The position numbers and the translations under genes are program-made. DNA of 64,000 nucleotides from positions 1 through 64,000 of the forward strand of contig JAIRPD010000097.1 of NCBI GenBank assembly GCA_031257195.1, in the 5' to 3' direction. This document shows, one piece after another, positions 976 through 24,162 of the stretch (its first letter is position 1; each line of letters starts with the position of its first letter). The stretch comes from Treponema sp. (lineage in GTDB: Bacteria; Spirochaetota; Spirochaetia; Treponematales; Breznakiellaceae). The notes beneath the pieces are model-generated. The model saw only the letters and a program-made list of their open reading frames with translations. It ran no database searches and had not been told where the DNA came from.

Positions 976-1117
976 CTCCGCCCTGGTTCCCCGTTTTCCG
1001 GTAAAATTCCACCGCCGGTTCCGCGGTTTCGGGTCCCGCCGGACCCGGAGGGAAGGACCCTCTCCCCGGGGCTGTTCCAAAGGGTGAAAAAATGGTATTT
1101 TGAATGGCGGGACTTTT

Positions 1118-4216: not shown

Positions 4217-4228
4217 AGGGGTTCCCCC

Positions 4229-5665: not shown

Positions 5666-5714
5666 CCCGCTTCCTGTAAAACATCCGGGGGCCGCCGCCC
5701 TCGCCCTGAGGGTT

Positions 5715-6788: not shown

Positions 6789-6793
6789 GTCGC

Positions 6794-8104: not shown

Positions 8105-8120
8105 CCGCGGGCTTCCCCTT

Positions 8121-8951
8121 TCAGCCTTTTAAGCCCGTGGTGGCGATCCCCTCCACAAAGAAGCGCTGGAACATCAGGAACACCGCGATAACCGGAACGA
8201 GCGACACCACGGAAGCGGCCATAATCAGGCCGTATTCGGTTGAATATTGGCCAAGGAACATCCTGATACCCAGGGGGATGGTTTTAAGCGCCTCGGAATC
8301 AAAATAAATCATGGGGCCCATAAAGTCGTTCCAGATGGTAACAAAACTGAAAATAGTAAGGGTCGCCAGCACCGGCTTGGAAAGCGGCAGTACAATCCGG
8401 AAAAAGATGCCGAATTCATTCAGGCCGTCAATGCGGCCGGCGTCCAGCAGTTCGCCGGGGATATTCACATAGAACTGCCGCACCAAAAAAACCCCAAAGG
8501 CCGTAAAGCTCTGCATAAGAATATAGCCTATGTGGGTATTGGTCAAATGGAGGATACGCATTTCCACGTACTGGGGAAGCATATAGACCTGCCAGGGAAT
8601 GGCGATGGTGGCGACGTACAGAAAGAACAGCGTATTTCGTCCGGGAAAATTACACTTGGCGAAGCCGTAGGCGGCAAAGGCCGAGGTAAACACCTGTATC
8701 ACCGTTACAATGAAGGCCAGCTTGAAAGAATTGAAGGTGAAACGGGCGAAATTTATCTTCTCCCAGATTACCTTAAAGTTGCCCCAGACGGGATTTTCGG
8801 GTATCCATTTGACCGGTATGGAGAACACCTCCGCGTCATGCTTGAGGGAGGCGGAGAGCATCCACAAAAGAGGCAGCAAGGTTATGATGGTTACCGCGGT
8901 AAGCAGAAGGTAAACGCCAATACGGGCGGCCCTGTTTTGGCTCTCGATCAT
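8121..8951 (-). CDS. Sugar ABC transporter permease, MalG/LacG type
   Basis: A 276-residue inner-membrane permease with about six transmembrane helices, the first at residues 12-35. The E-A-A-like coupling loop is E-L-L-D-A-G-R-I-D-G-L-N-E-F-G-I-F-F-R-I-V-L-P. The N-terminus V-Y-L-L-L-T-A and the S-L-K-H-D-A-E-V-F segment fit the MalG branch of carbohydrate-uptake family 1. It overlaps the other permease gene by 4 bp, indicating translational coupling. It should act with that permease, the binding lipoprotein and a shared MsmX/UgpC-type ATPase encoded elsewhere. Confidence 0.95.
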   Translation of the reverse strand: MIESQNRAARIGVYLLLTAVTIITLLPLLWMLSASLKHDAEVFSIPVKWIPENPVWGNFKVIWEKINFARFTFNSFKLAFIVTVIQVFTSAFAAYGFAKCNFPGRNTLFFLYVATIAIPWQVYMLPQYVEMRILHLTNTHIGYILMQSFTAFGVFLVRQFYVNIPGELLDAGRIDGLNEFGIFFRIVLPLSKPVLATLTIFSFVTIWNDFMGPMIYFDSEALKTIPLGIRMFLGQYSTEYGLIMAASVVSLVPVIAVFLMFQRFFVEGIATTGLKG

Positions 8952-9847
8952 TTTTTGCCTCCCGCCCGGGCGTTTTCCACGCGGAACTGGAAAAAGGTGA
9001 TTCCCCCAACGATGAGGAAAAGGATCATGGCGGCGGCGCTGGTCCGTCCGTAATTAAAGTACACAAAGGCGTTATTGTATATGTAATTACTTACCAGCGT
9101 GGTCGCGGTCCCCGGGCCGCCCTCTGTCAGGGCAAAGATAATATCAAATGACTTAAAGCTGTTGATGGTAAGCATGAGCAGCACAAAGAAGGTCGCGGGG
9201 CGCAGCAGGGGGAGGGTAATCTTCGTAAAATACTGAAAATTTGAGGCCCCGTCGATGCTGGCCGCCTCACGCAGTTCCTTGGGAATATCCTGCAGAGCCG
9301 CCAGGTACACAATCATGTAGTACCCCATGTAGCGCCACACCGCGACAATGATAACCCCGGGGAGGGCCCATTTGGTGCTGCCGAACCAGCCGGGAGGATT
9401 CAAGACGCCGATTCCCCGCAGAAACGCGTTGATGGGGCCCGCGGGGGTCTTCATAAAAAGGAGCTGCCACACCACCGCGATGGAAACAATACTGGCCACA
9501 TAGGGGAAAAAAACGGCGCTGCGGAAAAAGCCCTTGGCCCTGATTTTTCTGTTGAGCAGCACCGCGAGTCCCAAAGAAACGAACAGGGTAAGCGCGACAC
9601 AGGCCAGCGTATACAGGCAGGTACGGGATATGGAGGCGCGGAATACGCTGTCCCGCAGGATCGCCATAAAGTTATCAAGGCCGACAAAACGCATGGAAGT
9701 AAAGCCGTCCCAGTTCATAAAACTCAGGACCAGCGAAAACACCACCGGTATAAGAATAAACACAAGAAATCCCGCGAAATTAGGCAGGATAAACAAAAAA
9801 CCAATCAGCGTGTTTCTTGCCGTTAAGGAAAGACGGGGTTTTGCCAT
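8948..9847 (-). CDS. Sugar ABC transporter permease, MalF/LacF type
   Basis: A 299-residue inner-membrane permease. The N-terminus (T-L-I-G-F-L-F-I-L-P-N-F-A-G-F-L-V-F) and the coupling loop E-L-R-E-A-A-S-I-D-G-A-S-N-F-Q-Y-F are typical of the MalF/LacF/UgpA branch, with six predicted helices. AGGAG lies just before the ATG. It follows the binding-protein gene by 55 bases and overlaps the second permease by 4 bp. Substrate is inferred from context as a uronate-containing oligosaccharide. Confidence 0.95.
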   Translation of the reverse strand: MAKPRLSLTARNTLIGFLFILPNFAGFLVFILIPVVFSLVLSFMNWDGFTSMRFVGLDNFMAILRDSVFRASISRTCLYTLACVALTLFVSLGLAVLLNRKIRAKGFFRSAVFFPYVASIVSIAVVWQLLFMKTPAGPINAFLRGIGVLNPPGWFGSTKWALPGVIIVAVWRYMGYYMIVYLAALQDIPKELREAASIDGASNFQYFTKITLPLLRPATFFVLLMLTINSFKSFDIIFALTEGGPGTATTLVSNYIYNNAFVYFNYGRTSAAAMILFLIVGGITFFQFRVENARAGGKK

Positions 9848-9902
9848 ACTCTTTCTCCTGTTCCGTGATCATACCGCCCCAAAACGGGGCGGTTCCCTCG
9901 AT

Positions 9903-11174
9903 TTACTTTCCCTGGATCTCTTTTGAGCGCTTGGACATGGCCGCGAGGCCCTGATCAACGCTGGCCTCGTTCAGCATGATCAGGCTGTGCTCCTCACCGA
10001 GCATCTGGTTCACCTCCGCCACATATTCCACCATCGGCCGGTCAAGGGCGATGTTCTCCACGGCCAGGGCCTCCACAAGGCCGTCGGGCATGCCGGGAAC
10101 CCCGGCTATGTCGGCCAGGTTCTGGCTGTTCGCGCGGCTGGGGAAGGTGGCGTATTTAGAGTAAATGGCCGCCCCCTGGCCGCCCGTCACGAATTTCAAA
10201 AACTCCCAGGCGGCGTCCTTGTTTTTGGAGGCCTGATTGATGGCGATGGGAGTTACGGACCCCACCGTCCAGCCCGCCGGCACCCCCTCCGGGTGCGGAA
10301 GGGCGGCGACGCCCCACCTGATGGAAGCCTCGCCCTTTTTAATCCGGTCGTTGATGGTCGCGGCAAGCCAGAAACCCATGGGTATCATCGCCACATTGCC
10401 TTTCATAAAGGCGTTGGCGTAGGCGATGTTGCCGGCCTTGAGGCTGCCGAAATCCATCACCACCCCCGCGTTCTGCATTCGCAGGGCCATTTCGTAGTAG
10501 GGCTTCATAAAGCTGTAGTCCGTGTCCACAATGGTATGTTTCCCGTCCTGCACGGCCCAGTTTTGCACACAGGCGGGCCAGGTGTGGAAATGGGCGCCGT
10601 AAATTTTACCGGCGCCGGAACCGGAAGTGAGCTGGCCGGCGAGCTGTTCCCACCGCGTCCAGGTCATGTCGTTGGAAGGATAGGGAATTCCGGCCTTGTC
10701 AAAAATGTCCTTGTTGTAAAAAAGCACGTAATAGCTGGTGCTGGCGGGCAGGGCGACCGTTTTATTGTCTATGATAAAACGTTCCGCCAGGCCCTTGTAG
10801 GCGGATATATCAACGCCATCCCGCTTTATGTACGCGGACAGATCGGCCAGCTGTCCCCGGTTTGAAAGCCCCTTGGTGGTGTCTCCGTCTTTAATCCAGA
10901 AAGCGTCCACATCACTGCCGCCGTTGAGCATGACCGAAAGTTTCTGCGTATAGTCCGCCTGAGGCGTATCAATGACTTCCACTTTAATATCCGGCTGGGA
11001 AGCCTCAAACCCCTTTACCAGCTCGGCGTAGTAGGGGTTGAGGGTGGTATCCCAAACCGCCACCTTGATAGTAACCGGACCTTCCCCCGCTTTGGATTGA
11101 TCCGTTTTGGAACAACCGGCAAAAAGACAGACCGCCAGAATCAGCGGCGCCGCGATACCGAAATTTGCTTTCAT
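9903..11174 (-). CDS. Extracellular sugar-binding lipoprotein of an ABC transporter (SBP family 1)
   Basis: A 423-residue lipoprotein with a signal peptide and lipobox L-F-A-G-C (lipidated Cys21). It should bind sugar in the periplasm or on the inner membrane and deliver it to the two permeases. Family-1 features include V-A-V-W-D-T-T-L-N-P-Y-Y-A-E-L-V-K-G-F, G-G-S-D-V-D-A-F-W, and the late A-A-W-E-F-L-K-F-V-T-G. A longer frame begins at 11237, but the ATG at 11174 has AGGAG 8 bases upstream and starts the signal peptide exactly, so it is preferred. A 105-base gap upstream may hold a secondary promoter. Confidence 0.94.
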   Translation of the reverse strand: MKANFGIAAPLILAVCLFAGCSKTDQSKAGEGPVTIKVAVWDTTLNPYYAELVKGFEASQPDIKVEVIDTPQADYTQKLSVMLNGGSDVDAFWIKDGDTTKGLSNRGQLADLSAYIKRDGVDISAYKGLAERFIIDNKTVALPASTSYYVLFYNKDIFDKAGIPYPSNDMTWTRWEQLAGQLTSGSGAGKIYGAHFHTWPACVQNWAVQDGKHTIVDTDYSFMKPYYEMALRMQNAGVVMDFGSLKAGNIAYANAFMKGNVAMIPMGFWLAATINDRIKKGEASIRWGVAALPHPEGVPAGWTVGSVTPIAINQASKNKDAAWEFLKFVTGGQGAAIYSKYATFPSRANSQNLADIAGVPGMPDGLVEALAVENIALDRPMVEYVAEVNQMLGEEHSLIMLNEASVDQGLAAMSKRSKEIQGK

Positions 11175-11279
11175 ACAGAAACTCCTGTTGTTAGTATGGG
11201 CGAAAGATCGCCTATATTGGATTGTATCCATAAGCATGCCGTTAAACCATGCATTTTTATCGAAAAAAGAATACTTTTT
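11175..11279 (-). promoter_or_regulatory. Intergenic leader before the sugar-binding lipoprotein gene
   Basis: This is the longest gap between the uxuA end and the uxaC end of the cluster. Read on the - strand it is AT-richer than its surroundings, contains TACAAT-like and CAATAT-like hexamers and a small GGCGA/TCGCC hairpin just before the ribosome-binding site. It may carry an internal promoter or a processing site that boosts binding-protein expression. No exact -35/-10 pair is certain. Confidence 0.35.
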
Positions 11280-13082
11280 CTACACTCCCCCGGGACCGGT
11301 CTCCCCGTAAAACCGCCGCATAACGTAATAGGCGGCTTTTTTTTGAAGCCGTCCCGCGTCAATGAGTCCCTTGCGGTTAAAACCCTCCTGATAGCGGTTA
11401 AGCCGGCGGGGGCAGCGGAAATCATAGAATATCCAGGGACTTACGCCGGCGATATAGGGGCACTGCCGTATCACCGCGGTCTGCCGCTCATAGAGGTCTC
11501 TTTGCTTGTCCTCCGTCCACAGGTCGTCCACGGTTCCCCGCTGGCCGGCCCGGGCGTCGCCGCCGAATTCGCAGATCACCACCGGTTTTGCCGGGGCGGA
11601 ATTCGCCAGTATCTTGGGCAGCTTGCCGAAATCCGGATCGTACCAGCCGTAGTATTCGTTAACGCCGATAATATCCAGGACTTCGGCCAGCCGGTCATCG
11701 ATCTTCAGCTCGGTATGGTTGATAAGGCAGGCGGCGGAAACGGGGCGCGTGGGATCGAGTTCCCTGGCCCGGCGCGCCAGGGCGGACATAAAGGTGAGGC
11801 GGCTGTCGGTGTCGGCGTTTTCGTTTCCCACCGACCAGATGATGACGCTGGCGCGGTTCCGGTCCCTCAGCACCAGTTCCGAAAGCTGGTTTTGGGCGTC
11901 ATGGTAAGTCGCCGGATTGTCAAAGGCCACGGCCCAGTAGACCGGTATTTCCTCCCACAGCAGCACCCCCTCCTCATCGGCGATTCTGGCGAACCGGGAA
12001 TCGTGCGGGTAGTGGGCCAGCCTGAGATAACAGCCGTTCATTTCTTTTAGATCGCGGATGGTTGAACGGATAATGTCCTCGCTGGTGGTCTTTCCATGGA
12101 TGATGTGGTCTTCGTGAACGCTGACCCCCTTGAGAAAGATTTTTTTTCCGTTCAGGATTATGTCCGTACCCCGGACGGCGATTTCGCGGAAGCCGATACG
12201 ATCCCGCGCGGAGTCCTGTTTGCCGTCCTTTCCGGCGGTAAACCGCAGGATCACGTCGTAGAGCCTGGGGTTTTCGGGGCTCCACCGTTCCGGCTTCGCC
12301 CCAATATGAAAGGAAGCTCTTCCGTCCCGCGCCGGGGCCTCCGCGCGCGCGGACAGTTCGGGAATCTCAATCCCTACCGTACCGTCCGCCCCCTCCCCGC
12401 CGTCTATGTACACATCGGCGTCCACGCCGCCGTCCCCGGCCAGCCGGACAAACCAGTCTTTAATGTAGACCCGCGGCAGGCGGTACAGAAAAACATCGCG
12501 GTACAGGCCGCCGTAATTGAACCAGTCGCTGTTGTCCATGGGAATCCGCGCGGGACCGCGGCGCGCGTCAACGGTAACCACCACGCGGTTTTCCTCCTGT
12601 ACCAGGCCGGTAATATCCGCGTTGAAGGGCGTTGACGCGCCGTCGTGGGAACCGGCGAAAAGGCCGTTCACAAAAACGCAGGCATTGTAAGCCGCCCCCT
12701 CAAAGCGCAGGATCAGGCGTTCCCCCGCTTCCCGGGGGACATAACGGAAAGTACGGGTGTAAACCCCCGCGCCCTCAAAATAATACAGTTCCGGCCTTTC
12801 CATATTCCAGCAGGCCGGCACGTTGATCCGCTCCCAGGCCTCCCAGTCCCAGTCAACCGGCTGGGGGACCCCGGCGGCGCTGGTTCGTATTTCTTTAAAC
12901 CATTCGGCCCGGCGGCAGGTGTCGTACCAGTCCGCCGCGAAATTCCATCTGCCGGAAAGGGACTCCCCTTCCCTGCCCGACGTGTTGATAAGACAGGACG
13001 CGGAAAGGGAGGGCTCCCGGTAATTCTCCTCGTAGGCGGCGTTGTGTATATCCGCCTGGTAATTGCCCGATTTCGTTTCCAT
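11280..13082 (-). CDS. Beta-glucuronidase-like glycoside hydrolase family 2 enzyme
   Basis: A 600-residue GH2 protein without a signal peptide. An N-terminal sugar-binding domain (G-x-Y-T-R-T-F, F-N-A-D-I-T) is followed by an immunoglobulin-like domain (about 230-310) and a TIM barrel. The barrel has acid/base Glu in S-V-G-N-E-N and nucleophile Glu in C-E-F-G-G-D. Near the end, N569-R-K571 matches the N-x-K motif that binds the glucuronate carboxylate in beta-glucuronidases, at almost the same position as in E. coli GusA. With uxaC, uxuA, uxuB and kdgK around it, a beta-glucuronidase role is well supported. A broader GH2 specificity, for example galacturonidase, is possible. SD AGGGGG precedes the ATG. 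Confidence 0.88.
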   Translation of the reverse strand: METKSGNYQADIHNAAYEENYREPSLSASCLINTSGREGESLSGRWNFAADWYDTCRRAEWFKEIRTSAAGVPQPVDWDWEAWERINVPACWNMERPELYYFEGAGVYTRTFRYVPREAGERLILRFEGAAYNACVFVNGLFAGSHDGASTPFNADITGLVQEENRVVVTVDARRGPARIPMDNSDWFNYGGLYRDVFLYRLPRVYIKDWFVRLAGDGGVDADVYIDGGEGADGTVGIEIPELSARAEAPARDGRASFHIGAKPERWSPENPRLYDVILRFTAGKDGKQDSARDRIGFREIAVRGTDIILNGKKIFLKGVSVHEDHIIHGKTTSEDIIRSTIRDLKEMNGCYLRLAHYPHDSRFARIADEEGVLLWEEIPVYWAVAFDNPATYHDAQNQLSELVLRDRNRASVIIWSVGNENADTDSRLTFMSALARRARELDPTRPVSAACLINHTELKIDDRLAEVLDIIGVNEYYGWYDPDFGKLPKILANSAPAKPVVICEFGGDARAGQRGTVDDLWTEDKQRDLYERQTAVIRQCPYIAGVSPWIFYDFRCPRRLNRYQEGFNRKGLIDAGRLQKKAAYYVMRRFYGETGPGGV

Positions 13083-13093
13083 GCTTGTTCCCC

Positions 13094-14116
13094 CTACCGC
13101 TGTACCCGGCCCGATCCATCGCCGCGGGCGAGTTTCTCCACCTCTTCCAGTGAAACCAGGTTGAAGTCGCCCTCAATACTGTGCTTAAGGCAGCTCGCCG
13201 CCGCCGCGAATTCCAGCCGCTCCCGCGCGTCCATGCCCCGCAGGGTTCCGTAAATAAGGGCCGCGCCAAAACTGTCGCCGCCGCCAACCCGGTCCACAAT
13301 GTGAACCGGATACTTTTTTGAAAAGAAACAGTCCTTTCCATCGAAGAGCATGGCGGCCCAGTTGTTGTCACTGGCGGAAATGGATTCCCGCAGGGTTATG
13401 GCCGTCTGCTTAAGGCCGAAACGCCCGGCCAGCAGTTTCGCGGCTTCCGCGTAACCTTCACGGCTTATGACGCCGCCGGTTATGTCGCTGCCGGGGGCCG
13501 TGACGCCGAAGACGTCTCCCAGGTCTTCCTCGTTGGCGATACACAGGTCCACATAGCGCATAAGCCGCCCCATCACTTCCCCGGCCTTTTCCTTTGACCA
13601 CAGGTTCTTGCGGTAGTTAAGGTCGCAGGAAACGCCGAGCCCTCCGGCCCTGGCGGCCTCACAGGCCTCAAGGCAAATGGCCGCGGCCTTGTCCGAAAGG
13701 GCGGGGGTAATGCCCGTAAAGTGAAACCAGCCGGCGTTTTTGAATATCCCGGGCCAGTCAAAGTCGGAACACTCCGCCTCGGCGATGGCGGAACGGGCCC
13801 GGTCGTAGATAACCTTGGAGGGCCGCTGGGAAGCGCCCTTTTCAAGAAAGTATATCCCCACCCGTTCACCGCCCCGGACTATCAGCGAAGTATCCACCCC
13901 GAATTCCCGCAGCGCGTTTATCGCGGCCTGGCCGATTTCGTGCCCGGGCAGCTTGGTCACAAAAGCGGCGTCCACGCCAAAAGACGCCAGAGACACCGCG
14001 ACATTGGCCTCGCCGCCGCCGTAGCTCGCGCCGTAGCTCCGGGCCTGGACAAAACGCCCGTACCCTTCCGGCGCGAGGCGCAGCATTATTTCCCCAAAGG
14101 TAATCACTCTTTTCAT
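13094..14116 (-). CDS. kdgK: 2-keto-3-deoxygluconate kinase (PfkB family)
   Basis: A 340-residue sugar kinase phosphorylating 2-keto-3-deoxy-D-gluconate to KDPG. The start F-G-E-I-M-L-R-L-A-P and G-G-x-x-A-N-V-A-V-S-L-A are typical of KdgK. The ATP-site signature D-R-V-G-G-G-D-S-F-G-A-A-L holds the catalytic Asp, with G-G-G-D in place of the more common G-A-G-D, as is usual in this subgroup. It lies between uxuB and the GH2 gene and completes glucuronate conversion to KDPG. No KDPG aldolase gene is in the window. Confidence 0.94.
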   Translation of the reverse strand: MKRVITFGEIMLRLAPEGYGRFVQARSYGASYGGGEANVAVSLASFGVDAAFVTKLPGHEIGQAAINALREFGVDTSLIVRGGERVGIYFLEKGASQRPSKVIYDRARSAIAEAECSDFDWPGIFKNAGWFHFTGITPALSDKAAAICLEACEAARAGGLGVSCDLNYRKNLWSKEKAGEVMGRLMRYVDLCIANEEDLGDVFGVTAPGSDITGGVISREGYAEAAKLLAGRFGLKQTAITLRESISASDNNWAAMLFDGKDCFFSKKYPVHIVDRVGGGDSFGAALIYGTLRGMDARERLEFAAAASCLKHSIEGDFNLVSLEEVEKLARGDGSGRVQR

Positions 14117-14165
14117 TAAAACCTCACGGCACTAACAAGATACTCCGCCCCAGGGGCGAAGGACA

Positions 14166-15806
14166 TTACTGTACGCATGACACCGTCTTTTTCAAAACCG
14201 CCCGCACCGCGCCGGGACCCTGCACAAGCCTGGCGAAAAGGTTCTCGACTTTAACGCCCAGCCCCGCCTCGTACAGGTCAACGCCAAAAAACGCCGGATC
14301 GGACAAAACGGGACCCAGGGTTTCGTGGATGGACCCCGCCGCGCCCAGCCGCAGGCCGGAAAGCCGGTTTGCCAGGTTGTCGTACTGGGGGTCCGGGCTT
14401 ACGGTAAACTCATTCCCCCAATCGTCAACACCCAGCAGGTAGCGGAACCACGCGGCCGCCACCAGGGGTATACCCTCCAGGTCCGCCGTCCTGAGGGTCT
14501 CGCTTTTTTGGTAGGCTTTCAGGGTTTCCCCAAAACGGATGGGCATTTTGAGGGAGGTGTCCACCGCTATCCGCTGGGGCGTATCGGGCATGTAGGGATT
14601 GGGCAGGCGTACGCGGAGGACCTCATCAAGAAAAGTCCGGGGCGAAATGATCCCCGGATCGGTTACAACGGGCAGTCCCTCACGGCGGCCGATAAGTTCC
14701 AGCAGCCCCCGGAGGTCTTTGTCTTTCATTTCATCGCTGATCCGGGTGTACCCCAAAAGGCAGCCAAAGAGGGCCAGGGCGGTATGCAGAGGATTAAGGC
14801 AGGTACAGACCTTCATTTTTTCCACTCGGTCAACCGTTTCCCTTTCGGTAAAGAAAACCCCGGGCCCGGCCTTTTCCAGCGGGGGCCTGCCCGCGGGAAA
14901 ACTGTCCTCAATGACCAAATACTGACATTCCTCGGCGTTGACAAAGGGCGCCGCATAGGTACCCTTCGCGGTTACGCCGCCTTCCACGCCGGCAAGTCCG
15001 TCCTTGACCAGGAGGGCCTTGACCTCATCGCTGGGACGGGGGGTAATTTTGTCGATCATGGTCCAGGGGAAAGAAACCTTTCCCCGGTCCCGGATATACT
15101 CCGCGAAGGCCCTGTCCGTGAGCCGCCTTTCCGCCCAGCCCTGGGCGAAAGCGTCCACCGCGGCAAAAAGCCTGTCGCCGTTATGGGAACAGTTGTCCAT
15201 GCTGACCAGGGCCAGGGGTTTTTCCCCCGCGAGGTACCGTTCATGGCACAGGGCGGCGATGACCCCCATGTAGCTTTTCGCCCCCAGGGGACCGGCCTCC
15301 ATATCCGCCGCCGCCCGCGGGGAAAGGGCGCCCTCCGGGCCGGTAAGCGCGTAGCCCTTTTCGGTGATCGTAAAACTCGCCATCTTCAGGGAATTCTGGC
15401 GGAAAATGGTCCGGACGCGCTCCAAATCCTCCCCCCTGTCCAGCCGCAGGGCGCGGGCGACGGAGGCGATAACCTTTTTCTCTATCTTTCCGCTTTTCCC
15501 GCCGGCTTTCAGCGTTACCAGCAGGCTCAAGTTATCGTAAGGCGCGAACACCCGGTCGATAATCTCCCCATCATAGCCCTCCGCCACAACGACGCCGGTC
15601 TTTACCAGCCCTTTCTCCAGAAGCGCCTGCCACAGGGCCGCCGGAAAGGCGCGGAAAATGTTACCCGCCCCAAAGTGTATCCACTCCGGCGCTTTGTTGG
15701 TGGCGGCGATCATCGCTTCGCGGTCAAAGTCCGGCAGCCCTATACCCGCCTTTTTCCAGGCCCGGCCGCGAAGGCCCTCGTTGGATAACAGTAACGCCTG
15801 TTTCAT
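14166..15806 (-). CDS. uxuB: Fructuronate reductase / D-mannonate oxidoreductase
   Basis: A 546-residue member of the polyol-specific long-chain dehydrogenase (mannitol dehydrogenase) family, reducing D-fructuronate to D-mannonate with NAD(P)H. The Rossmann-type start H-F-G-A-G-N-I-F-R-A-F and the S-M-D-N-C-S-H-N-G-D motif are diagnostic. A catalytic Lys is expected in the C-terminal half. It is about 60 residues longer than E. coli UxuB. Its ATG directly abuts the uxuA stop (TGAATG), with SD AAGGGGAG inside the uxuA end, so translation is coupled. A tagaturonate or mannitol substrate is less likely given the neighbours. Confidence 0.92.
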   Translation of the reverse strand: MKQALLLSNEGLRGRAWKKAGIGLPDFDREAMIAATNKAPEWIHFGAGNIFRAFPAALWQALLEKGLVKTGVVVAEGYDGEIIDRVFAPYDNLSLLVTLKAGGKSGKIEKKVIASVARALRLDRGEDLERVRTIFRQNSLKMASFTITEKGYALTGPEGALSPRAAADMEAGPLGAKSYMGVIAALCHERYLAGEKPLALVSMDNCSHNGDRLFAAVDAFAQGWAERRLTDRAFAEYIRDRGKVSFPWTMIDKITPRPSDEVKALLVKDGLAGVEGGVTAKGTYAAPFVNAEECQYLVIEDSFPAGRPPLEKAGPGVFFTERETVDRVEKMKVCTCLNPLHTALALFGCLLGYTRISDEMKDKDLRGLLELIGRREGLPVVTDPGIISPRTFLDEVLRVRLPNPYMPDTPQRIAVDTSLKMPIRFGETLKAYQKSETLRTADLEGIPLVAAAWFRYLLGVDDWGNEFTVSPDPQYDNLANRLSGLRLGAAGSIHETLGPVLSDPAFFGVDLYEAGLGVKVENLFARLVQGPGAVRAVLKKTVSCVQ

Positions 15807-16874
15807 TCAGCGGCTCCCCTTTTCAATCGCTTCCCAAAGGCCGTTCAGATAGGCCGCCCCCAGCGCGCGGTCGTAGAGGCCGTAACCGGGCATGGAAACC
15901 TCGCCCCAGATGGCCCGCCCGTGATCGGGGCGGATGGGACCGTCAAAGCCCGCGTCGTGGAGCGCCTTCATAATGGCGTACATGTCCATGGAGCCGTCGG
16001 CGGAAAGATGGGCCGCTTCCTCGAATTTCCCCGGCGCGGTGTGGAGCAGGTTTCGCGCGTGGGCAAAGTGGATACGGCCCTTCAGGGCGGCGATGATGGC
16101 GGGAATGTCGTTCTGGGGGTTGGTTCCCAGGCTGCCGGTACAGAGCGTTACCCCATGGTGAACATTGTCCGAGATGCCTATAAACCGCAGCAGCCTTTCC
16201 CTGCCGGTAACAATCCGGGGAAGGCCGAAGACGGACCAGGAGGGATCGTCGGGATGGATCGCCATGTTAATATCGTATTTGTCACAGACGGGCATGATCC
16301 GCTGGATAAAATACCGCAGGTTTTCAAAGAGCCGTTCCTCATCAACCCCCCGGTACATGGCGAAAAGGTCCTTCAGCTTCGCGAGCCGTTCCGGTTCCCA
16401 GCCGGCCATGACAAAGCCCCTGGACTGCCGTTCTATCAGGCTTGTCATGTCATCGGGATTTATGGTGTCAATAAGGCTTTGATCGTAGGCCATGGTGGTA
16501 CTGCCGTCGGGCCGGACTTTGGCGAGGTCCGTGCGGGTCCAGTCGAAGACGGGCATAAAGTTATAGCAGACCAGGCGGATGTCCGCCTGCCCAAGCCTTT
16601 CCAGGGTAGTGATGTACGCGTCAATATAGGCGTCCCGGTCCGCGGAACCGGTTTTGATCGCGTCGTGGACATTGACGCTTTCGATTCCCGCTATGACAAG
16701 CCCCGCGTCCTCCACCTGTTTTTTGAGGCCGGCGATGGCCTCCCTTTCCCAGACTTCCCCCGGCAGTTTCCCGTACAGGGTGGTGATCACCCCCGTAACG
16801 CCGGGAACCTGCCGGATCCACTCCAGGCTCACCGAGTCGTAGTCTTTTCCAAACCAGCGCATGGTCATTCGCAT
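15807..16874 (-). CDS. uxuA: Mannonate dehydratase
   Basis: A 355-residue enzyme dehydrating D-mannonate to 2-keto-3-deoxygluconate. The N-terminus (M-R-W-F-G-x-D-x-D-x-V-S-L-x-x-I-R-Q-V-P-G-V) and the metal-site motifs H-P-D-D-P-P/S-W, C-T-G-S-L-G and R-P-D-H-G-R are characteristic UxuA features, and the length is standard. GGGAGG precedes the ATG. It is the first catabolic gene after the surface-protein genes, only 30 bases from the beta-barrel gene, so it is probably in the same transcript. Confidence 0.97.
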   Translation of the reverse strand: MRMTMRWFGKDYDSVSLEWIRQVPGVTGVITTLYGKLPGEVWEREAIAGLKKQVEDAGLVIAGIESVNVHDAIKTGSADRDAYIDAYITTLERLGQADIRLVCYNFMPVFDWTRTDLAKVRPDGSTTMAYDQSLIDTINPDDMTSLIERQSRGFVMAGWEPERLAKLKDLFAMYRGVDEERLFENLRYFIQRIMPVCDKYDINMAIHPDDPSWSVFGLPRIVTGRERLLRFIGISDNVHHGVTLCTGSLGTNPQNDIPAIIAALKGRIHFAHARNLLHTAPGKFEEAAHLSADGSMDMYAIMKALHDAGFDGPIRPDHGRAIWGEVSMPGYGLYDRALGAAYLNGLWEAIEKGSR

Positions 16875-16904
16875 ACGTTAATCCTCCCTCAAAATAACGG
16901 TTCG

Positions 16905-18815
16905 CTAAAATTCTATTTTCAGTCCCAGGGGAAAACCAATATCTATATACCCCGCCTTGTTAACCGCCATCTCGGAGGATACGGCCGGGGGACTTTGGAA
17001 CGAGAACGCGGCGTAACGCAGGGCCAGGCCGCCCCGGACGCTGGCCCTGGCGCTCCCCGCGGCGGCAAAGATGTAGTTGATACCCGCGTAGAACCCAAAG
17101 TAGTTACTCCGCGCCCGGAGGGGGTCCTCTTCCCACTTCAGGGTGAACGCGCCAAACTGGTTGGCGAGCTGCGCGTTCACGATAAAGACTTCGGTCAGTT
17201 CGTATTTCGCCCCCAGGGCGGTGTAAAGGCCCAGGTAGGTTTCTTTTCGCTCTTCGATACCCCTCACGGTGTCCTCGTTAAGCTGGGTCTCGTAGGCCCA
17301 GCCGTAACTGTACAGCAGGGTTTTGTTGGGCGTCCCCCGCATATCCGCGAAACTGATGTTGTTATTCATCGTCAGGTTCAGCCTGGGAATGGCGGTATAG
17401 TTAAGGCGCAGGTCTATGGCGTTGTAGATGGGGAAACGCACCTCCCGGTAGGCGGAAAGCTTGTGTTCCTCCGTGCCGGTCGCGCTGGGCTCCGCGTTGG
17501 TATCTTTGTAGTTGGCGTTCTTCCAGCTCCGGGACAGGACCGAGTAGCCCACGGAAAGGGTAAGCCCCGGAAGGGGCGTCCCCATGTTGGCGTACAGGCC
17601 AAAGGTATGGTTGCCGATCTCCTCGTCCAGGGAATTGGCCTTGTCCAGGGACTCCGTTTTTTTAAGGGCCGAGGAGGCGTATTTGTACACCAGCGCCACC
17701 GTTAGGGGCCCCACAAAGGGAAAGTCGATCTCCGTTCCTTCCACCCGCATCCCAAAAAAGGCCCCCCGGGCTTCCAGCGGATCGTAGGTGTCGTCAAACT
17801 CGTTGGCCCTGGTACCTCCAGCGCCCCAGGGGGTCTTGAAGGGCCGGGAGGTACTTTTAAAAAGCCCCCCGGTGGAAAGCGAAAGGAAAAGGTTAAAGGG
17901 CAGAAACCGGGAGAGGTCCAGGGGCAGAAGCCCCAACACTTCGTTCAGGTTTCCCTCGACCAGGAAACCCAGGGGCTGGCGGACCAGGGAGCCCGCGGGC
18001 ATAAAAAGGTCGTTCGTGTCCGTGCCGGTAAAGGCCGCGAAACCCTTGTTCTGATCGGGGCCGTCGTAACCATAGGGAAAGGACCCCACGGTATCCACGT
18101 TGTTGCCCCCCACGATGGTGGGGTTCCGCTGCCACAGGGGGAACAGGATCCCAAACTCGTCCATCTTGGTCCGAAGGAAGTCGTCAAAATTCTGGTACCG
18201 TTCCACCCGGCCCCGCTGGGCCTGGTTCCCCGTAACCACCTTGAATCCCGGCAGCCACAAGGAGAGGGGCCTGGCCCAGGCTTGCCAGTCCCAGACCCCG
18301 GAAAAACCCGAGTCGCCCGCGGCCCGCAGCTGCAGGAGGCCGCCGAAACTTTCGTGGGTGTACTCAAATTTAAGCCGGGCCTCCAGGGGATCGTCAAAAG
18401 CCGAGGTTTGGAACATCGCCGTGTCCCCATTCCCCTGGTACCGGTAGGGACTTCCCGGGTGGGCCGCCGTTTTTTCCGCGTAGTCCCCGAACATGGACCG
18501 CTGGGTAAGGAGGTCAATCGCCGAATCCAGGGTAACGGTATAGGACTTTGACGGCGCCGGGGCGGGTTTCTTCGGGGCGGCCCCCCGGGAACCTTCGGTT
18601 CCCCCGGAATCCCCCGCGGCCGGCGGCTCCGCCGGCGTTTCCTCCGCCGGGGAACGCCCCTCGTCCGCGCCCTCGCCGGAAACCGGCCTGCCCTCCCACG
18701 AGCCCTGTTCCCCCGGCAGGGGAAAGGTCTTTTTTCGCCAGGTTTGGCCCTCCGCCGGAACGGAAAAAATCACCACAAAAACCAGCGACAAAGCGGATAT
18801 TATCAAGTTCCTCAT
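16905..18815 (-). CDS. Putative outer-membrane beta-barrel protein
   Basis: A 636-residue protein with a clear signal peptide (about residues 1-23, ending P-A-E-G-Q). A Pro/Glu/Ala/Gly-rich linker to about residue 90 follows, then a long stretch of alternating hydrophobic and aromatic beta strands ending in I-E-F, as in many outer-membrane proteins. No known porin family can be named from sequence alone. Its place between the beta-helix lipoproteins and the uronate catabolic genes suggests a porin or saccharide channel. It is flanked by 30 bases before uxuA and 55 after the beta-helix gene. Confidence 0.65.
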   Translation of the reverse strand: MRNLIISALSLVFVVIFSVPAEGQTWRKKTFPLPGEQGSWEGRPVSGEGADEGRSPAEETPAEPPAAGDSGGTEGSRGAAPKKPAPAPSKSYTVTLDSAIDLLTQRSMFGDYAEKTAAHPGSPYRYQGNGDTAMFQTSAFDDPLEARLKFEYTHESFGGLLQLRAAGDSGFSGVWDWQAWARPLSLWLPGFKVVTGNQAQRGRVERYQNFDDFLRTKMDEFGILFPLWQRNPTIVGGNNVDTVGSFPYGYDGPDQNKGFAAFTGTDTNDLFMPAGSLVRQPLGFLVEGNLNEVLGLLPLDLSRFLPFNLFLSLSTGGLFKSTSRPFKTPWGAGGTRANEFDDTYDPLEARGAFFGMRVEGTEIDFPFVGPLTVALVYKYASSALKKTESLDKANSLDEEIGNHTFGLYANMGTPLPGLTLSVGYSVLSRSWKNANYKDTNAEPSATGTEEHKLSAYREVRFPIYNAIDLRLNYTAIPRLNLTMNNNISFADMRGTPNKTLLYSYGWAYETQLNEDTVRGIEERKETYLGLYTALGAKYELTEVFIVNAQLANQFGAFTLKWEEDPLRARSNYFGFYAGINYIFAAAGSARASVRGGLALRYAAFSFQSPPAVSSEMAVNKAGYIDIGFPLGLKIEF

Positions 18816-18870
18816 GATCCTCTCCTTAAAATTCCGGCGCGGCCGGTCCGCCTCCCGGGAACGCCCTCAA

Positions 18871-21189
18871 TTAAAACGGATACTGCGCCGCGGCGAAGGC
18901 CCCAATGGGCGGCGGCGAGATGGAAACGCCGTACATATCCGTGGTAATGCCGCTGTCGTTCCAGGCGCTGTCCACCGAGCTGGAGGAAACGGGAATAGCC
19001 ATGCCGCGGCCGATAACGGGCGAAGTGGAATCGGCGGGAGCCAGGAGGGCCGCCCTCCCCAGCAGCCTGCTGATACTGGTAAAACCCCTTATCTCGTCCG
19101 CGTTGGCGTACGCGTAATCCGGCAGGGCGCTGTCCCGCTGGAGGCGCAGCAGCCAGGGACCGCTGGTCTCCTGGATCCACAGCCGGGGATTGGCCCACCT
19201 GTTTCCGTTGGCCCCCAGGATAGCGGAGACGGCCGTCCCCGTCCCGTTGTTGAATTTGCTCATGTCCCCCACCGCGGGATCGGTTCCATAGCCCCAGAGC
19301 AGGTTGTTCTTAAAGCCCGTATCCGTGTTGGTCAGCGCGCCGGCGGTCCCGCCCCCGCTGTGGCCGTAGGAAAGGTACACCGTCCCCGCGCCGGCCTTGA
19401 TCAGCACGTTGTTGAAAAAGCGCCCCACCCGGCCGTTGGCGCCGCTGGAGTTGTTCCCATAGAGGCCGCAGGTAATGCCGTCTCCCACATAGAAGGTGTT
19501 GTTATAGACCAGGGCGACCTTGTTAGTAACACTGGTTTGATTGTTGTGGAAGAGGGTCTGGCCTCCGGTCCAGGCCGTATAGGAATTGGCGGTGGTGCTG
19601 GCCCCGGGGGTTACCGAGACCACATAGCGGCTGCTCCCCGCGTCGTTGGCGCTCACGTTGTAGCGGAACACGCCGTTGGTGATGCCGTCCATAAAGAGGA
19701 TGCACCCCCCGGCGTTGTGGTGGCTGTAATTGTACTGGTAGATTACCTTGTCGCAGCCGTTGTCTATGTCCCAGGCCTCCCCGTCCTGGTAGCCGTACAG
19801 CGTCCCGTAGGCCTCGTTGTACTGTAGGGTGGTGTTTTTGTCGGTCATGGCCCAGACCGCGGCGTAGTTCGCCCCCAGGAAATTCGGGGCGGAGCAGGCG
19901 TCCTTAACGACGCAGCTTTCCACCAGGCCGTTCTTGTAGTCCTGCCGGGCGTTCAGGCCGCTCCCGTCCTGGACGCCGTCTATGACAATCCCGTCCCCCG
20001 CGATGGCCTCCAGGTAATTCCCCCGGAAGACCACGTTGCTGTTGGCCCAGCCGGAGCCGTCGGGGACGGACTTGTTCCGCAGTCCCTCCAGGGCCACCCG
20101 CTTGACGATGTTCCCCTCCAGCAGAATCCCGTTATACCCAAAGTACTGGCTGGAAGGCGTACCTCCCGTTTCCGTGTTGGGCATACCGTAGACGATGATG
20201 CCCCCCACCACCTTGAAGGTGGGGCTGGGACTGCCGCCGCCCAGGGTGGTGGAATTGTTAAAACCGCCGCCCCCGCCGTTGTTGGTGTGCATGGACTGCA
20301 CGTCATGGACATAGCAGTTCTGCACCACGACGTTGTAGCTGTTCGCGTCGCCATAGACCACCTGTCCCCGGTAATCCGGGTTGGTCCTGGTATCGCCGTA
20401 ACCCATAATCATAATGCCGGACAGGTGCTTCGCCACCCCCGCCGCGTAGTAGTGGTTGGGGTTGGCGATATAGTTGTCAAAGGTGTTGGTTACCTCTATG
20501 TTGCGGATCATCCAGTGGTGCTGGTTCAGGAGGGTTATCGCGCCGGAGGGGAACCACCGGTTACTGGCGCTGGGGGCGGGGGTGCCGTTCCCGTTGATCA
20601 GCGGCCGCCGGGAAACCACGTAGGATACCAGATCCCCCGTCGCGTCCAGCCGCTCGTAGGCGTCTATCACAATGTGCCTCCGGTCGGAACCGCTGCCCCC
20701 GGGAAAGAGCATGCCCACCGTATCGCTGGTCAAAAGGGAGCCATAGTTTTGCTCCGTAACGCTTGTCCCGTTCCAGACGCTGTTCGCCTCCAGCAGGATA
20801 TGATCCCCGGGGCTGAAGGGATTGGATGTTCTTCTGCTGTTGGGGTTCTTGAAACTCTTCCAGGGAGTCCTGGGGCTGAGGCCGTCGTTGGCGTCATTAC
20901 CCAGGGCCGCGTCAATGTAGTAGGTCGTCCCGGGAGAGGCGGCGGGCCCCAGGGACACAAGCCGCCCTCCCCCCGCGGATGAGCCGCCGCCCCCGCCGCC
21001 TCCACCACCGCCGCCGCTTCCGCCGCCCAGGAGCCCCAGATCGCCGCTGTCCAGGCCCTCCGTATGGTTTACCACCACCGGGAGCGGTTCCAGAACCGGG
21101 TTCTTGCAGGCCCCCAGCGTCCCCAGGGTCAGGATCAACGCCGCCCCCAGGGCCGCGATTTGTCCGTTACAGGTCTTCATGGTTTTCAT
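18871..21189 (-). CDS. Right-handed parallel beta-helix lipoprotein
   Basis: A 772-residue predicted surface lipoprotein with lipobox L-G-A-C (Cys28). A Gly/Ser-rich linker of about 20 residues follows, then Y-Y-I-D-A-A-L-G-N-D-A-N-D-G-L-S, the usual entry motif of parallel beta-helix carbohydrate-active proteins. Repeating N-x-V and G-I-x-I/V-x-G rungs run to about residue 560. This fold is shared by polysaccharide lyases and epimerases, but I cannot assign catalytic residues or a PL family. The frame runs up to 21285, but the ATG at 21189 has AAGGAGGA just upstream and starts the signal peptide. Context makes a glycan-degrading or glycan-binding role likely. Confidence 0.75.
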   Translation of the reverse strand: MKTMKTCNGQIAALGAALILTLGTLGACKNPVLEPLPVVVNHTEGLDSGDLGLLGGGSGGGGGGGGGGGSSAGGGRLVSLGPAASPGTTYYIDAALGNDANDGLSPRTPWKSFKNPNSRRTSNPFSPGDHILLEANSVWNGTSVTEQNYGSLLTSDTVGMLFPGGSGSDRRHIVIDAYERLDATGDLVSYVVSRRPLINGNGTPAPSASNRWFPSGAITLLNQHHWMIRNIEVTNTFDNYIANPNHYYAAGVAKHLSGIMIMGYGDTRTNPDYRGQVVYGDANSYNVVVQNCYVHDVQSMHTNNGGGGGFNNSTTLGGGSPSPTFKVVGGIIVYGMPNTETGGTPSSQYFGYNGILLEGNIVKRVALEGLRNKSVPDGSGWANSNVVFRGNYLEAIAGDGIVIDGVQDGSGLNARQDYKNGLVESCVVKDACSAPNFLGANYAAVWAMTDKNTTLQYNEAYGTLYGYQDGEAWDIDNGCDKVIYQYNYSHHNAGGCILFMDGITNGVFRYNVSANDAGSSRYVVSVTPGASTTANSYTAWTGGQTLFHNNQTSVTNKVALVYNNTFYVGDGITCGLYGNNSSGANGRVGRFFNNVLIKAGAGTVYLSYGHSGGGTAGALTNTDTGFKNNLLWGYGTDPAVGDMSKFNNGTGTAVSAILGANGNRWANPRLWIQETSGPWLLRLQRDSALPDYAYANADEIRGFTSISRLLGRAALLAPADSTSPVIGRGMAIPVSSSSVDSAWNDSGITTDMYGVSISPPPIGAFAAAQYPF

Positions 21190-21208
21190 ACCCTCTTCCT
21201 CCTTAAAA

Positions 21209-24070
21209 TCAATCCCAGCCGTCCGGGCCGGCCCAATCCGGGGCGTTCCTGTCGCCCGAACCCCGTTCCACAAACAAGCGGTCATTGACGCCCAGGGTGG
21301 CGTCCCGTTTTTTCACGGCGGTTACCGCGAGGTTCGAGGCGGAACCGCTGTTTTTGGGCAGCGCCACGGCGGCCTTGACGGTCCCGGTCCAGGTTGTGGT
21401 ATTGGCGCTGGCCCCCGTCGTACCGTAAATGGTTCCGCCGGTTTTCTGGAACGCGCCGCTGATAAGCACCGCCCCCGCGCTGGGAAGGGCCGAGGAACCC
21501 TGTACGCTGTTGCCGGAAATTTCCCCGCCGGTCATAAAGAAGACATCCCGTCCAAAGTAGGTCGCGTTATGCGCTCCCCGGCCAAACACGGCCCCGGCCC
21601 GGTACGCGGTCGCCCCGTTTGTTACACTGTTATTTCTAATGGTCCCGCCATGCATGATCACAGCGCCAGCCTCGTAAATATATACCCCCCCGGAACCGCC
21701 GTTCTCTCCGGCGCCGCTGGAGGTAATACTGTTACCGCTGATCTCCCCGCTGTTTATCAGCAGGATAGTTCCATTGGAACCGCCGCCCATACGAACCGCG
21801 CCGCCCATATCACCGGTGTTGGAATTCACGTTATTTCTGATAACGCCGCCGTCGAGGATCACCTTGCCGCCATCGTTAATCTGGAACAGGGGCTGGTTCC
21901 TGGCGGTACCGCCGCCGTCAAAAATCACATGCTCGTCGATCACCAGGGTAACGCGGTTTCTCAGAACAAGGGCGGAATTACTGGTACCGGTTACGGTAAT
22001 AACCTTGTCCGCACTGTTGGCGCTGGTAACAATTATGAGGGGGTTTTTACCGGCGGGGGCTCCGGTTGCGTCAAAACTAGTGGCGGCGGCGTAGGTTTGA
22101 TCACAACCCAGCACAATGGTGTAGGTATCGCCCAACCCTTCCGCCGCGCTGACGGCGGCATCCGCCCTGATACCGGAAGCTCCCTGAAGATACGCTATAG
22201 CCTTGGAATACAGATCAGCCGCCCCTGCCGCCGCGGTTGTATCAGCAATGCCGGTGAGAGCTATAAACGTACCGTTTTTATAGAACCCCGGGGTGTTTTC
22301 AAAGCTCCCCCTGGTCCGCTTTACCACATTACGGACAATGAACTGGGGCACAGGGGAAAGCTTGTTCGTGTTTGGCGCGGAGGTGGTGGACTTGTTTATC
22401 ACGGCCCCCTCCACATCGGTACTAAAGCGAAGGATTTCCCCCCAGGCCGCGGGGGAACTCATGGTAAAGTCCCAGGCCGCCTCGTTCGTGCCGGAAACCG
22501 CCGCGGGGGCGCTCAGGGTATAGGTTCGGGCGCCCGTATCCAACAGGGGATTGCCGCCAACAGAAAAACCGGGCAGCAAGTTGGCCTTTACCTTGAGCTT
22601 GGTCACGTCGGCGATGGTAACGGGCTCGCTAAAGACCACCCGCAGTTTGTTGGAAGGCGCCGCGGCCGCGTTCCCGGAGGCGTCCACCACCGCGGCGCTC
22701 TTGATGTAGGGCCGGTCCCCTCTCTCATAGACGGTGAAGGCCAGGGGTTTGCTGAACGCCGCGAGGGCCGTTAGGTTGGCGGTAAGGTTGCTCCCGCTGT
22801 AGGCCACGTTGACGCCGCTCCCATGCCGTACGTAGCTGCCCGGGTCCAGGGTAAGGGTAATGACGTTGCCGGCCAGGACCGCGCCGCTTACCGTGAGCGC
22901 CGCGGAGGGGTTTGTTTTGGTCACGGTAAAACCAGTCCCGGCGTTGGCCGGCCCAGTCCCCGACACCACCGCGTCGCTCAGGGTCAGCTTAATCCCGGTA
23001 ACCGCGAGGGCCGCGGCGGGGTCGTCGTACACCGGTTCCATGCTGACCAGCACCGGGGCCGGCGCCGCGCCGATGCTGGCGGTAAACCGCGCCGATCCCT
23101 GGTGGGTCAGCTTGAGCCCTTCGGGCGCGGACGCCTTTATCGCCAGCTTAACGGTAACCTCCGAGGACGCGCCGTTGGCTCCGTCAAAGGTTAATTCCCC
23201 GGTGGCGGGATCAACCGCCGATATGACCGTCCCCCCTCCCGTGCGGGTGAAGTCGATGGTGTTCGACCCCGCGGCGGCGGTAATGTCCGCCAGGTTCAGC
23301 ACGGCCGCGCGCAAACCGACGGGCCGGGCCAGGCGTCTATAGGAATCCACCGGATAGAGGGGGTCCAGCGCGTCCGGCGCGGGGTACACGGTTATTGTTT
23401 TCCCCGTTACCGTCAGGGGGCTTTCACTGGAAATAAAACCAACCACCACACTGCCGGCCCCCGTAACCCTCAGGGTCCCGGTGTTTTCATCCACCTCCGC
23501 CACGGAGGAGTTGCTGGAAAACCAGGGCATGCCGGCGGTCCAGTTCCCGCTGTTCACGGCCGAACCGGTGTGGCCCTCGTACCCAACCTGCAAAAGATTT
23601 TCCGTCAGGGTCAAGGCGCTGTCCACGGTAAACCCGAATTCGCCGTAGGTGATCCGTATCTTTTTGGCCGCGTTTTGGTTGCCCACCAGCAGGAAGGCGC
23701 CGTGTTTGTCCGTCCCCTGGGTGGTGTCGGGGAAGCTGACGGTGAAGGCCGTGGTTTGGCCGGGGGCGACGGCGGGAAGCGTCTCGGGGGCCGCGGAAAA
23801 AAGGCTCTCGTCGCCGGGATAAGCGGGGTCCTCCACGATAACCACCCTCATGCCGTTCAGGGGCTGGTTCCCGGTATTGGTAACCCGTACCTCAAAGTCC
23901 GGGGCTTGCGCGAAATTCGCCCCCGTGGGCGCGTAGACGGCAATGGAATCCCGCCCCAGGCTTAAATTGCTGATCAGCAGTTCCGGGTTACCCGGACTGA
24001 CAACCTGGCTGCAGGTGGTCAGAACAAACAGGAATACCGCAAAAAGGGCAAAGGTACGGATCTTTTTCAT
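21209..24070 (-). CDS. Large surface lipoprotein with Ig-like and beta-helix repeats
   Basis: A 953-residue lipoprotein with lipobox L-T-T-C (Cys20). After it come CARDB-like and Big2-like immunoglobulin folds (about residues 25-270) and further Ig-like or cadherin-like modules. A C-terminal part has short M-x-G-G-x-I-S-G-N-S-type beta-helix repeats (about 690-880), a repeat common in Treponema surface proteins. Its end is Trp/Gly/Asp-rich. The ATG at 24070 has GGAGG in front. A longer frame to 24196 would include the promoter and is rejected. It is the first gene of the uronate cluster, 19 bases from the next. I infer adhesion to, or handling of, the polysaccharide. Confidence 0.7.
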   Translation of the reverse strand: MKKIRTFALFAVFLFVLTTCSQVVSPGNPELLISNLSLGRDSIAVYAPTGANFAQAPDFEVRVTNTGNQPLNGMRVVIVEDPAYPGDESLFSAAPETLPAVAPGQTTAFTVSFPDTTQGTDKHGAFLLVGNQNAAKKIRITYGEFGFTVDSALTLTENLLQVGYEGHTGSAVNSGNWTAGMPWFSSNSSVAEVDENTGTLRVTGAGSVVVGFISSESPLTVTGKTITVYPAPDALDPLYPVDSYRRLARPVGLRAAVLNLADITAAAGSNTIDFTRTGGGTVISAVDPATGELTFDGANGASSEVTVKLAIKASAPEGLKLTHQGSARFTASIGAAPAPVLVSMEPVYDDPAAALAVTGIKLTLSDAVVSGTGPANAGTGFTVTKTNPSAALTVSGAVLAGNVITLTLDPGSYVRHGSGVNVAYSGSNLTANLTALAAFSKPLAFTVYERGDRPYIKSAAVVDASGNAAAAPSNKLRVVFSEPVTIADVTKLKVKANLLPGFSVGGNPLLDTGARTYTLSAPAAVSGTNEAAWDFTMSSPAAWGEILRFSTDVEGAVINKSTTSAPNTNKLSPVPQFIVRNVVKRTRGSFENTPGFYKNGTFIALTGIADTTAAAGAADLYSKAIAYLQGASGIRADAAVSAAEGLGDTYTIVLGCDQTYAAATSFDATGAPAGKNPLIIVTSANSADKVITVTGTSNSALVLRNRVTLVIDEHVIFDGGGTARNQPLFQINDGGKVILDGGVIRNNVNSNTGDMGGAVRMGGGSNGTILLINSGEISGNSITSSGAGENGGSGGVYIYEAGAVIMHGGTIRNNSVTNGATAYRAGAVFGRGAHNATYFGRDVFFMTGGEISGNSVQGSSALPSAGAVLISGAFQKTGGTIYGTTGASANTTTWTGTVKAAVALPKNSGSASNLAVTAVKKRDATLGVNDRLFVERGSGDRNAPDWAGPDGWD

Positions 24071-24162
24071 AGGACCTCCACAAATCCTCATCGTCTTATC
24101 ACAGTTCCCGGCCTGGGAGCGGCGCTCGATTCCCGCCTCAAAATCCCAAAACCCCAGATACA

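Follow-up and report, generated by a model that had tools for sequence, protein, structure and literature searches.

A predicted GH136-type beta-helix lipoprotein and its candidate partner in a glucuronate gene row of a Treponema sp.

The genes directly ahead of uxuA in a 64,000-nt stretch of Treponema sp. DNA (the window, to which all coordinates refer) raise the question of what kind of glycan system two lipoproteins and a barrel-like protein might form, and whether any of them is an enzyme. An earlier note on this DNA had placed three genes in line directly before uxuA, and these, here termed A, B and C, are indeed intact minus-strand genes separated by gaps of 19 bp (A-B), 55 bp (B-C) and 30 bp (C-uxuA). 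They cover only the start of a row of 13 minus-strand genes that runs from 24070 to 4229, with A first and uxaC last; the end of the row at 4229, and within it gene S, a candidate partner of B, had gone unnoticed. Gaps within the row range from -4 to 55 bp, with 193 bp ahead of A, and the row is presumably read as one transcript. In order, its genes are:

21209 to 24070, minus strand: gene A, a 953-aa lipoprotein (Cys20) with an Ig-like region and C-terminal beta-helix-type repeats (sequence reading, weak Pfam matches)
18871 to 21189, minus strand: gene B, a 772-aa lipoprotein (Cys28), predicted catalytic subunit of a GH136-type beta-helix glycosidase (PDB phmmer, AlphaFold2, Foldseek, VIA-align)
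16905 to 18815, minus strand: gene C, 636 aa, a porin-like outer-membrane barrel by a low-confidence model and sequence, with a signal-peptide-like leader and a C-terminal Phe
15807 to 16874, minus strand: uxuA, mannonate dehydratase (NF003027 and TIGR00695 above cut-off)
14166 to 15806, minus strand: uxuB-like fructuronate/mannonate oxidoreductase (Mannitol_dh domains; NCBIfam matches below cut-offs)
13094 to 14116, minus strand: kdgK-like 2-keto-3-deoxygluconate kinase (PfkB; NCBIfam matches below cut-offs)
11280 to 13082, minus strand: GH2 beta-glucuronidase-like enzyme (GH2 domains; PRK10150 beta-glucuronidase at 1e-74, below cut-off)
9903 to 11237, minus strand: ABC sugar substrate-binding protein (SBP_bac_1, 3.6e-35)
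8948 to 9847, minus strand: ABC permease I (BPD_transp_1)
8121 to 8951, minus strand: ABC permease II (BPD_transp_1)
6794 to 8104, minus strand: GH29 alpha-L-fucosidase-like enzyme (Alpha_L_fucos, 6e-89)
5715 to 6788, minus strand: gene S, 357 aa, LnbY/GH136I-related candidate partner of B (profile searches, LnbY kinship, co-occurrence)
4229 to 5665, minus strand: uxaC, glucuronate isomerase (UxaC, 2.7e-177)

Beyond its end lie a terminator-like element and two candidate regulators:

4213 to 4232, minus strand: terminator-like stem-loop at the end of uxaC (consensus match only)
2933 to 4216, plus strand: AraC-type response regulator, convergent with uxaC (Response_reg, HTH_18)
1100 to 2914, plus strand: sensor histidine kinase, encoded ahead of the response regulator (His_kinase, HAMP, HATPase_c)

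Terminator-like sites number 40 in the whole stretch as against 27.8 (sd 6.1) in shuffles, and a promoter scan of 4100-24090, which excluded the stretch before A, was uninformative (7 sites as against 6.6 in shuffles).

Within the row, the kinase encoded at 13094-14116 has no aldolase part, yet its best match is to a KHG/KDPG aldolase-kinase fusion model, in the kinase half (1.9e-173, below cut-off). No signal peptide was seen in the GH2 and GH29 enzymes. Near its C-terminus the GH2 enzyme bears, as judged by eye, an NRKG (NxK) segment, which we take to resemble the NxK carboxylate motif. Given this segment, and that beta-glucuronidase is the best fit for this enzyme, glucuronic acid, and perhaps fucose, is likely to be part of the substrate. 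The row's scanned genes gave no match to an unsaturated-uronyl hydrolase family, nor to an enzyme for hexosamine or galactose. We judge it probable that the row as a whole serves to use a glucuronic-acid-bearing glycan, with B, together with S, cutting it, C and the ABC transporter importing the pieces, and the cytosolic glycosidases and the uxu pathway finishing the process.

The GH2 gene alone is commoner, being found in 20 of 118 genomes of the family (own included) at 1e-60, with no GH2 at this threshold in the related genome G007, which is 74% complete. When GH2 loci from eight of the 19 other genomes were compared at E 1e-8 and 25% identity, matches to A, B, C, S and the uxu genes were present in none of them and ABC matches in four, indicating that the gene combination is not conserved at those loci. 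The full union of the window's parts occurs in no other genome examined, its parts in G007 lying on separate contigs. These eight loci, along with both B loci of G007, which have no uxu match, would fit an alternative in which A, B and C, perhaps with S, form a set that serves another glycan and happens to stand before an unrelated glucuronide row, the linkage to uxuA being incidental. Against this, the gaps are short throughout the row, and S sits inside the row, flanked by GH29 and uxaC and away from B; hence we regard such an incidental linkage as unlikely, and continue to read the 13 genes as one glucuronide-using row. As a separate observation, the GH2 relatives at G016:C118 and G012:C299 each carry one in-frame stop, TGA and TAG respectively.

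Gene B has Cys28 (TLGAC) and gene A Cys20 (VLTTC) after hydrophobic leaders, as read from the sequence, bearing out the two lipoproteins of the earlier note. With B as phmmer query, no PDB sequences other than four GH136 lacto-N-biosidases reached E <= 1e-5 (6kqs, 7.2e-19; 5gqc, 1.3e-16; 24mr, 5.8e-15; 7v6i, 7.2e-14), and weaker matches, such as 5efr at 0.0018, fall on a Gly-rich linker. An AlphaFold2 model of residues 73-772 (pLDDT 75.3, pTM 0.86) is a beta-helix with C-terminal helices, and its Foldseek ranks 1-6 are all GH136, with E from 9.1e-21 to 2.5e-15. With VIA-align the model matched LnbX at Z 30.2 over 503 residues (2.9 Å, 26% identity), followed by TnX at 29.6 and BsaX at 29.3, on whose structures we found no paper; the next row is an alginate epimerase at 22.4. 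For ErLnb136 the Z was only 21.5 (378 residues), which is in the range of epimerases and lyases. The beta-helix rungs that the earlier note had seen are thus real in B, but most like a glycosidase helix, given that the Foldseek and VIA-align ranks favor GH136. Accordingly, B is a predicted GH136-type glycosidase, of the beta-helix lacto-N-biosidase family, and not a lyase. Full-length B is present in two of the 118 family genomes, its own and G007; a 69-residue N-terminal match in a third, G097 (5.6e-5), was taken for leader and linker. In a draw of 392 genomes from the phylum, B-type matches at 1e-10 occur in 24 (own included), most of them in the N-terminal part alone.

The earlier note had held that no catalytic motif could be assigned, but a candidate is found in B:

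19762 to 19785, minus strand: catalytic motif DGEAWDID, with D469 (acid/base equivalent), D474 and D476 (nucleophile equivalent), aligned to D568/D575 of ErLnb136

In ErLnb136, D568 is the acid/base and D575 the nucleophile, while W548 stacks the galactose, according to excerpts of PMC7335108. In a phmmer alignment counted by hand, these three residues align respectively with D469, D476 and Met448 of B, giving B an Asp pair with the same seven-residue spacing; the 6kqs chain index runs two above the numbering of PMC7335108. Of 50 aligned rows from related loci (duplicate genes included), 26 have D469, D474 and D476 together, the other 24 being short of the motif or missing at least one of the three Asp. 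All three are kept in the three Treponema copies of B.

GH136 enzymes depend on a partner, either LnbY or a GH136I domain that helps to form the active site (PMC7335108, PMC8106489). No GH136I domain is fused to B, and nine genes separate it from the candidate for this role, S. The N-terminus of S includes, as judged by eye, a hydrophobic segment; S also shows a similarity to SurA_N that is under the cut-off, and a segment reminiscent of LnbY:

6264 to 6350, minus strand: LnbY-like segment of S, residues 147-175, ESER..MVYGPEEL..FNSY (alignment)

Within it E147, Y162, G163 and Y175 are invariant across six aligned rows. Direct phmmer comparison of S with four proteins whose genes adjoin strong GH136 genes gave 13.8, 8.7, 5.4 and 4.1 bits, which is weak alone. 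We also searched 13 genomes in which GH136-type genes are known with a two-member profile made of S and its G007 relative (51% identical). This yielded 17 matches at E <= 10 in seven of the genomes, of which 13, in five genomes, lie at E <= 2.9e-5. Among these 13 strong matches a same-strand GH136-type match lies within 3 kb for 11 and within 4 kb for 12, the remaining one being on a contig without a GH136-type match, even as the 3-kb zones around GH136-type matches make up just 0.25-0.79% of those genomes. The profile is therefore kin to proteins encoded beside GH136-type enzymes, as would be expected of the LnbY/GH136I superfamily. The NCBIfam LnbY model in turn matches the linking proteins at L071 (3.4e-42, 145 bits), L075 (1e-39) and L043 (1.7e-15), as well as the G007 relative of S (16.7 bits, E 0.0048). 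By these sequence comparisons S is distantly related to the LnbY group.

The distance is considerable, as the NCBIfam LnbY model does not match the window's S up to E 0.5, both S and the L071 protein fall below the 400-bit cut-off of the LnbY equivalog NF047894, and a four-member LnbY profile failed to find S in its own genome. Likewise, the S profile found nothing in six of the 13 genomes, including G400, which has an LnbY-type gene, and PDB sequence searches with S, its profile and the LnbY relatives did not reach the GH136I domain of 6KQS. In its distribution S parallels B: among the 118 family genomes it occurs in the same two that have full-length B, namely the window's genome and G007, where it lies on an 8.3 kb contig separate from that of B. 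In the 392-genome draw, no genome other than the window's own gave an S match at E 0.01. Taken together, S is likely to be an LnbY/GH136I-type partner of B. As a side observation, G120 and G122 (L043, L045, L057, L060, L069) have several GH136-type genes per genome, and four of six and four of four of their strong S-type matches, respectively, lie within 3 kb of such a gene.

Beta-helix proteins can bind glycans, and part of the Asp triad is missing in some relatives of B (D-H-D in L051), so that B could be pictured as an inactive beta-helix which, along with A, merely captures glycan for C. The retention of the three Asp in every Treponema copy, along with that of an activating-type partner, makes this quite improbable.

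The closest solved structures to B being lacto-N-biosidases, B might itself be a genuine lacto-N-biosidase, with Gal-beta-1,3-GlcNAc units in glycans from a host or from microbes as its target, a reading to which we attach little probability. The galactose-stacking Trp is not kept in the sequence alignment, its position being taken by Met448; the register here is unsure since one Treponema copy has an extra residue (WAM in B, WAWY and WVY in the other two). From this replacement it follows that the substrate of B probably differs from that of the solved GH136 enzyme. On the LnbX equivalog NF047897 B scores 64.8 bits where 2500 bits are required, a strict cut-off that was reached in none of 295 Lachnospirales genomes, the strong rows of which go up to 571.6 bits and are thus also below it. 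In a 27-row tree the Treponema copies group together (100/100), and the lacto-N-biosidase-like rows fall in a separate clade (100/100), although the backbone of this tree is unresolved and B's clade is among the long branches flagged. The row, as described above, also offers no matched hexosamine or galactose enzyme. The missing Trp speaks against taking an ordinary lacto-N-biosidase as the default reading, as do the score and the tree; the latter two rather suggest that B, though of GH136 type, has diverged and is no LnbX equivalog. The lacto-N-biosidase-like clade itself includes short GH136-type proteins of 426-436 aa with WPWKC and DGQAWDxD motifs, which are encoded at L092-L095 in genomes of the window's class (G651, G724, G734, G685).

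Least probable is the new lyase family suggested by the earlier note, i.e. a beta-helix polysaccharide lyase whose unsaturated uronates would enter the uxu pathway: the fold and the uronate catabolic neighborhood would suit it, PL9 and PL6 structures do come after GH136 in the fold search, and lyase Z-scores are about as high as that of ErLnb136, but the reading was rejected on the fold-search comparison, as the best lyase (pectate lyase Pel9A, PL9, 1ru4; Foldseek rank 7) has an E of 2.7e-5 against 9.1e-21 for GH136 and lyases have a Z of about 20-21 (PL6 about 20) against 30.2 for LnbX, and it is further opposed by the GH136 Asp pair of B and by a row that includes GH2 and no matched unsaturated-uronyl hydrolase. 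PL31 was not recognized among the fold matches listed for the B model, which excludes nothing.

The GH136-type glycosidase thus predicted is accompanied by C in all three known loci, the window and both G007 loci, where the two genes adjoin. C ends in LKIEF, i.e. in the outer-membrane-type Phe that had been read from the sequence before. Its model is poor (pLDDT 46.6, pTM 0.49) and has many long strands. Among the matches listed (50 of 701), Foldseek gives membrane beta-barrels by title, with low TM-scores, and VIA-align puts OpdL (Z 17.6), maltoporin (17.4) and OccK porins first, with AlgE close behind, for what is a low-confidence model. As Pfam finds no family at E 1, there is no sign of a TonB or plug domain; TonB-dependent receptors are present among the weak Foldseek rows. 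From this model C looks like a porin-like outer-membrane barrel. The structure predictions by which the earlier note proposed to check its case thus give a beta-helix for B and barrel matches, from a low-confidence model, for C. C-type relatives are found in 11 of the 118 family genomes (own included), and in one of them a distant relative (L034, 556-6743) ends a row that also includes GH4 and an ABC permease.

For A, the second beta-helix protein of the earlier note, the repeated GGxI-type rungs are seen by eye only; its Pfam matches, including the Ig-like region, are all under their cut-offs, and a PDB search found nothing at E 0.1. A precedes B in two of the three loci, a relative lying immediately ahead of B in G007 (L032), where the neighbors include an OmpA-domain protein and a GH39-like protein resembling a lipoprotein (L032, 568-3101). 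With matches, mainly of its beta-helix part, in 28 of the 118 family genomes (own included), A is a common local type, and it is probably a surface glycan-binding or scaffold protein. Another A-type protein, with a 1401-aa frame, is encoded in G007:C184 at 18722-20173 (L080), a contig without a B or C match.

The presence in one row of lipoproteins, a porin-like barrel, an ABC importer and glucuronate catabolism supports the non-Sus surface glycan apparatus that had been proposed from A-C, and its probable working may be pictured as follows. B, lipid-anchored at the surface or in the periplasm, would act as a GH136-type retaining glycosidase on an extracellular glycan, probably requiring S for its folding or the completion of its active site, and would release short oligosaccharides. 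A might hold the glycan or act as a scaffold for other proteins. The oligosaccharides would then pass the outer membrane through C and be carried into the cell by the ABC importer, where the cytosolic GH29 and GH2 enzymes would remove fucose and glucuronic acid; UxaC, UxuB, UxuA and KdgK would convert the glucuronate to 2-keto-3-deoxy-6-phosphogluconate. This offers a testable model of glycan uptake across the spirochaete outer membrane. It also points to S as the second protein for co-expression, as an assay with B alone could well fail.

More tentatively, and with doubt prevailing, B and S might constitute a GH136-type two-subunit enzyme of new specificity, which frees glucuronic-acid-capped di- or oligosaccharides at the surface for a dedicated TonB-independent porin. 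The products could for instance be GlcA-beta-1,3-linked units, the oxidized counterpart of the Gal-beta-1,3-GlcNAc released by LnbX. If so, the GH136-type/LnbY-type pairs of Paenibacillaceae, Lachnospiraceae and others would be under-explored two-subunit beta-helix glycosidases with many substrates. GH136 enzymes cleave beta-links. Hence, we did not adopt the insect glucuronyl-T antigen as a direct substrate of B, as its GalNAc is alpha-linked to protein. This antigen, in Drosophila, is GlcA on Gal-GalNAc, as given in an excerpt of PMC4808802. GH136 and arabinogalactan both occur in PMC13386854 and PMC11475409. The characterized GH136 enzymes act on milk-type and related host glycans, going by portions of PMC7335108 and PMC8106489, and a divergent member tied to glucuronate in a Treponema-type spirochaete points to other substrates, beyond the sugars of milk and mucus. 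On GH136 with Treponema or termites, passages of two papers, one a family-count table for a termite gut metagenome and the other naming GH136 in Armatimonadota, describe no such system.

Among known systems, the nearest is the LnbX/LnbY pair of Bifidobacterium longum, which shares with B and S the nearly full-length beta-helix, the Asp pair and a partner gene of LnbY kinship, distant in our case; B differs in being a spirochaetal lipoprotein set nine genes apart from its partner gene in a glucuronate row, in lacking the galactose-subsite Trp, and in scoring, like S, far below the LnbX/LnbY equivalog cut-offs. The GH136I-GH136II fusion ErLnb136 (6KQS) of Eubacterium ramulus resembles B in its aligned catalytic Asp pair, whereas B lacks the fused GH136I domain, has Met448 in place of W548 and aligns with it structurally at the modest Z mentioned above. 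Bacteroides SusC/SusD systems likewise combine surface lipoproteins beside an outer-membrane barrel with glycosidases; in contrast to these, C has no Pfam match and its low-confidence model has OprD/Occ porins, maltoporin and AlgE as its nearest listed folds, and the window's row includes an ABC importer. Finally, the hexuronate pathway of uxaC, uxuA, uxuB and kdgK with a GH2 beta-glucuronidase represents an identical enzyme set for glucuronate, but here the same row adds GH29, a barrel and a GH136-type enzyme predicted to act at the surface.
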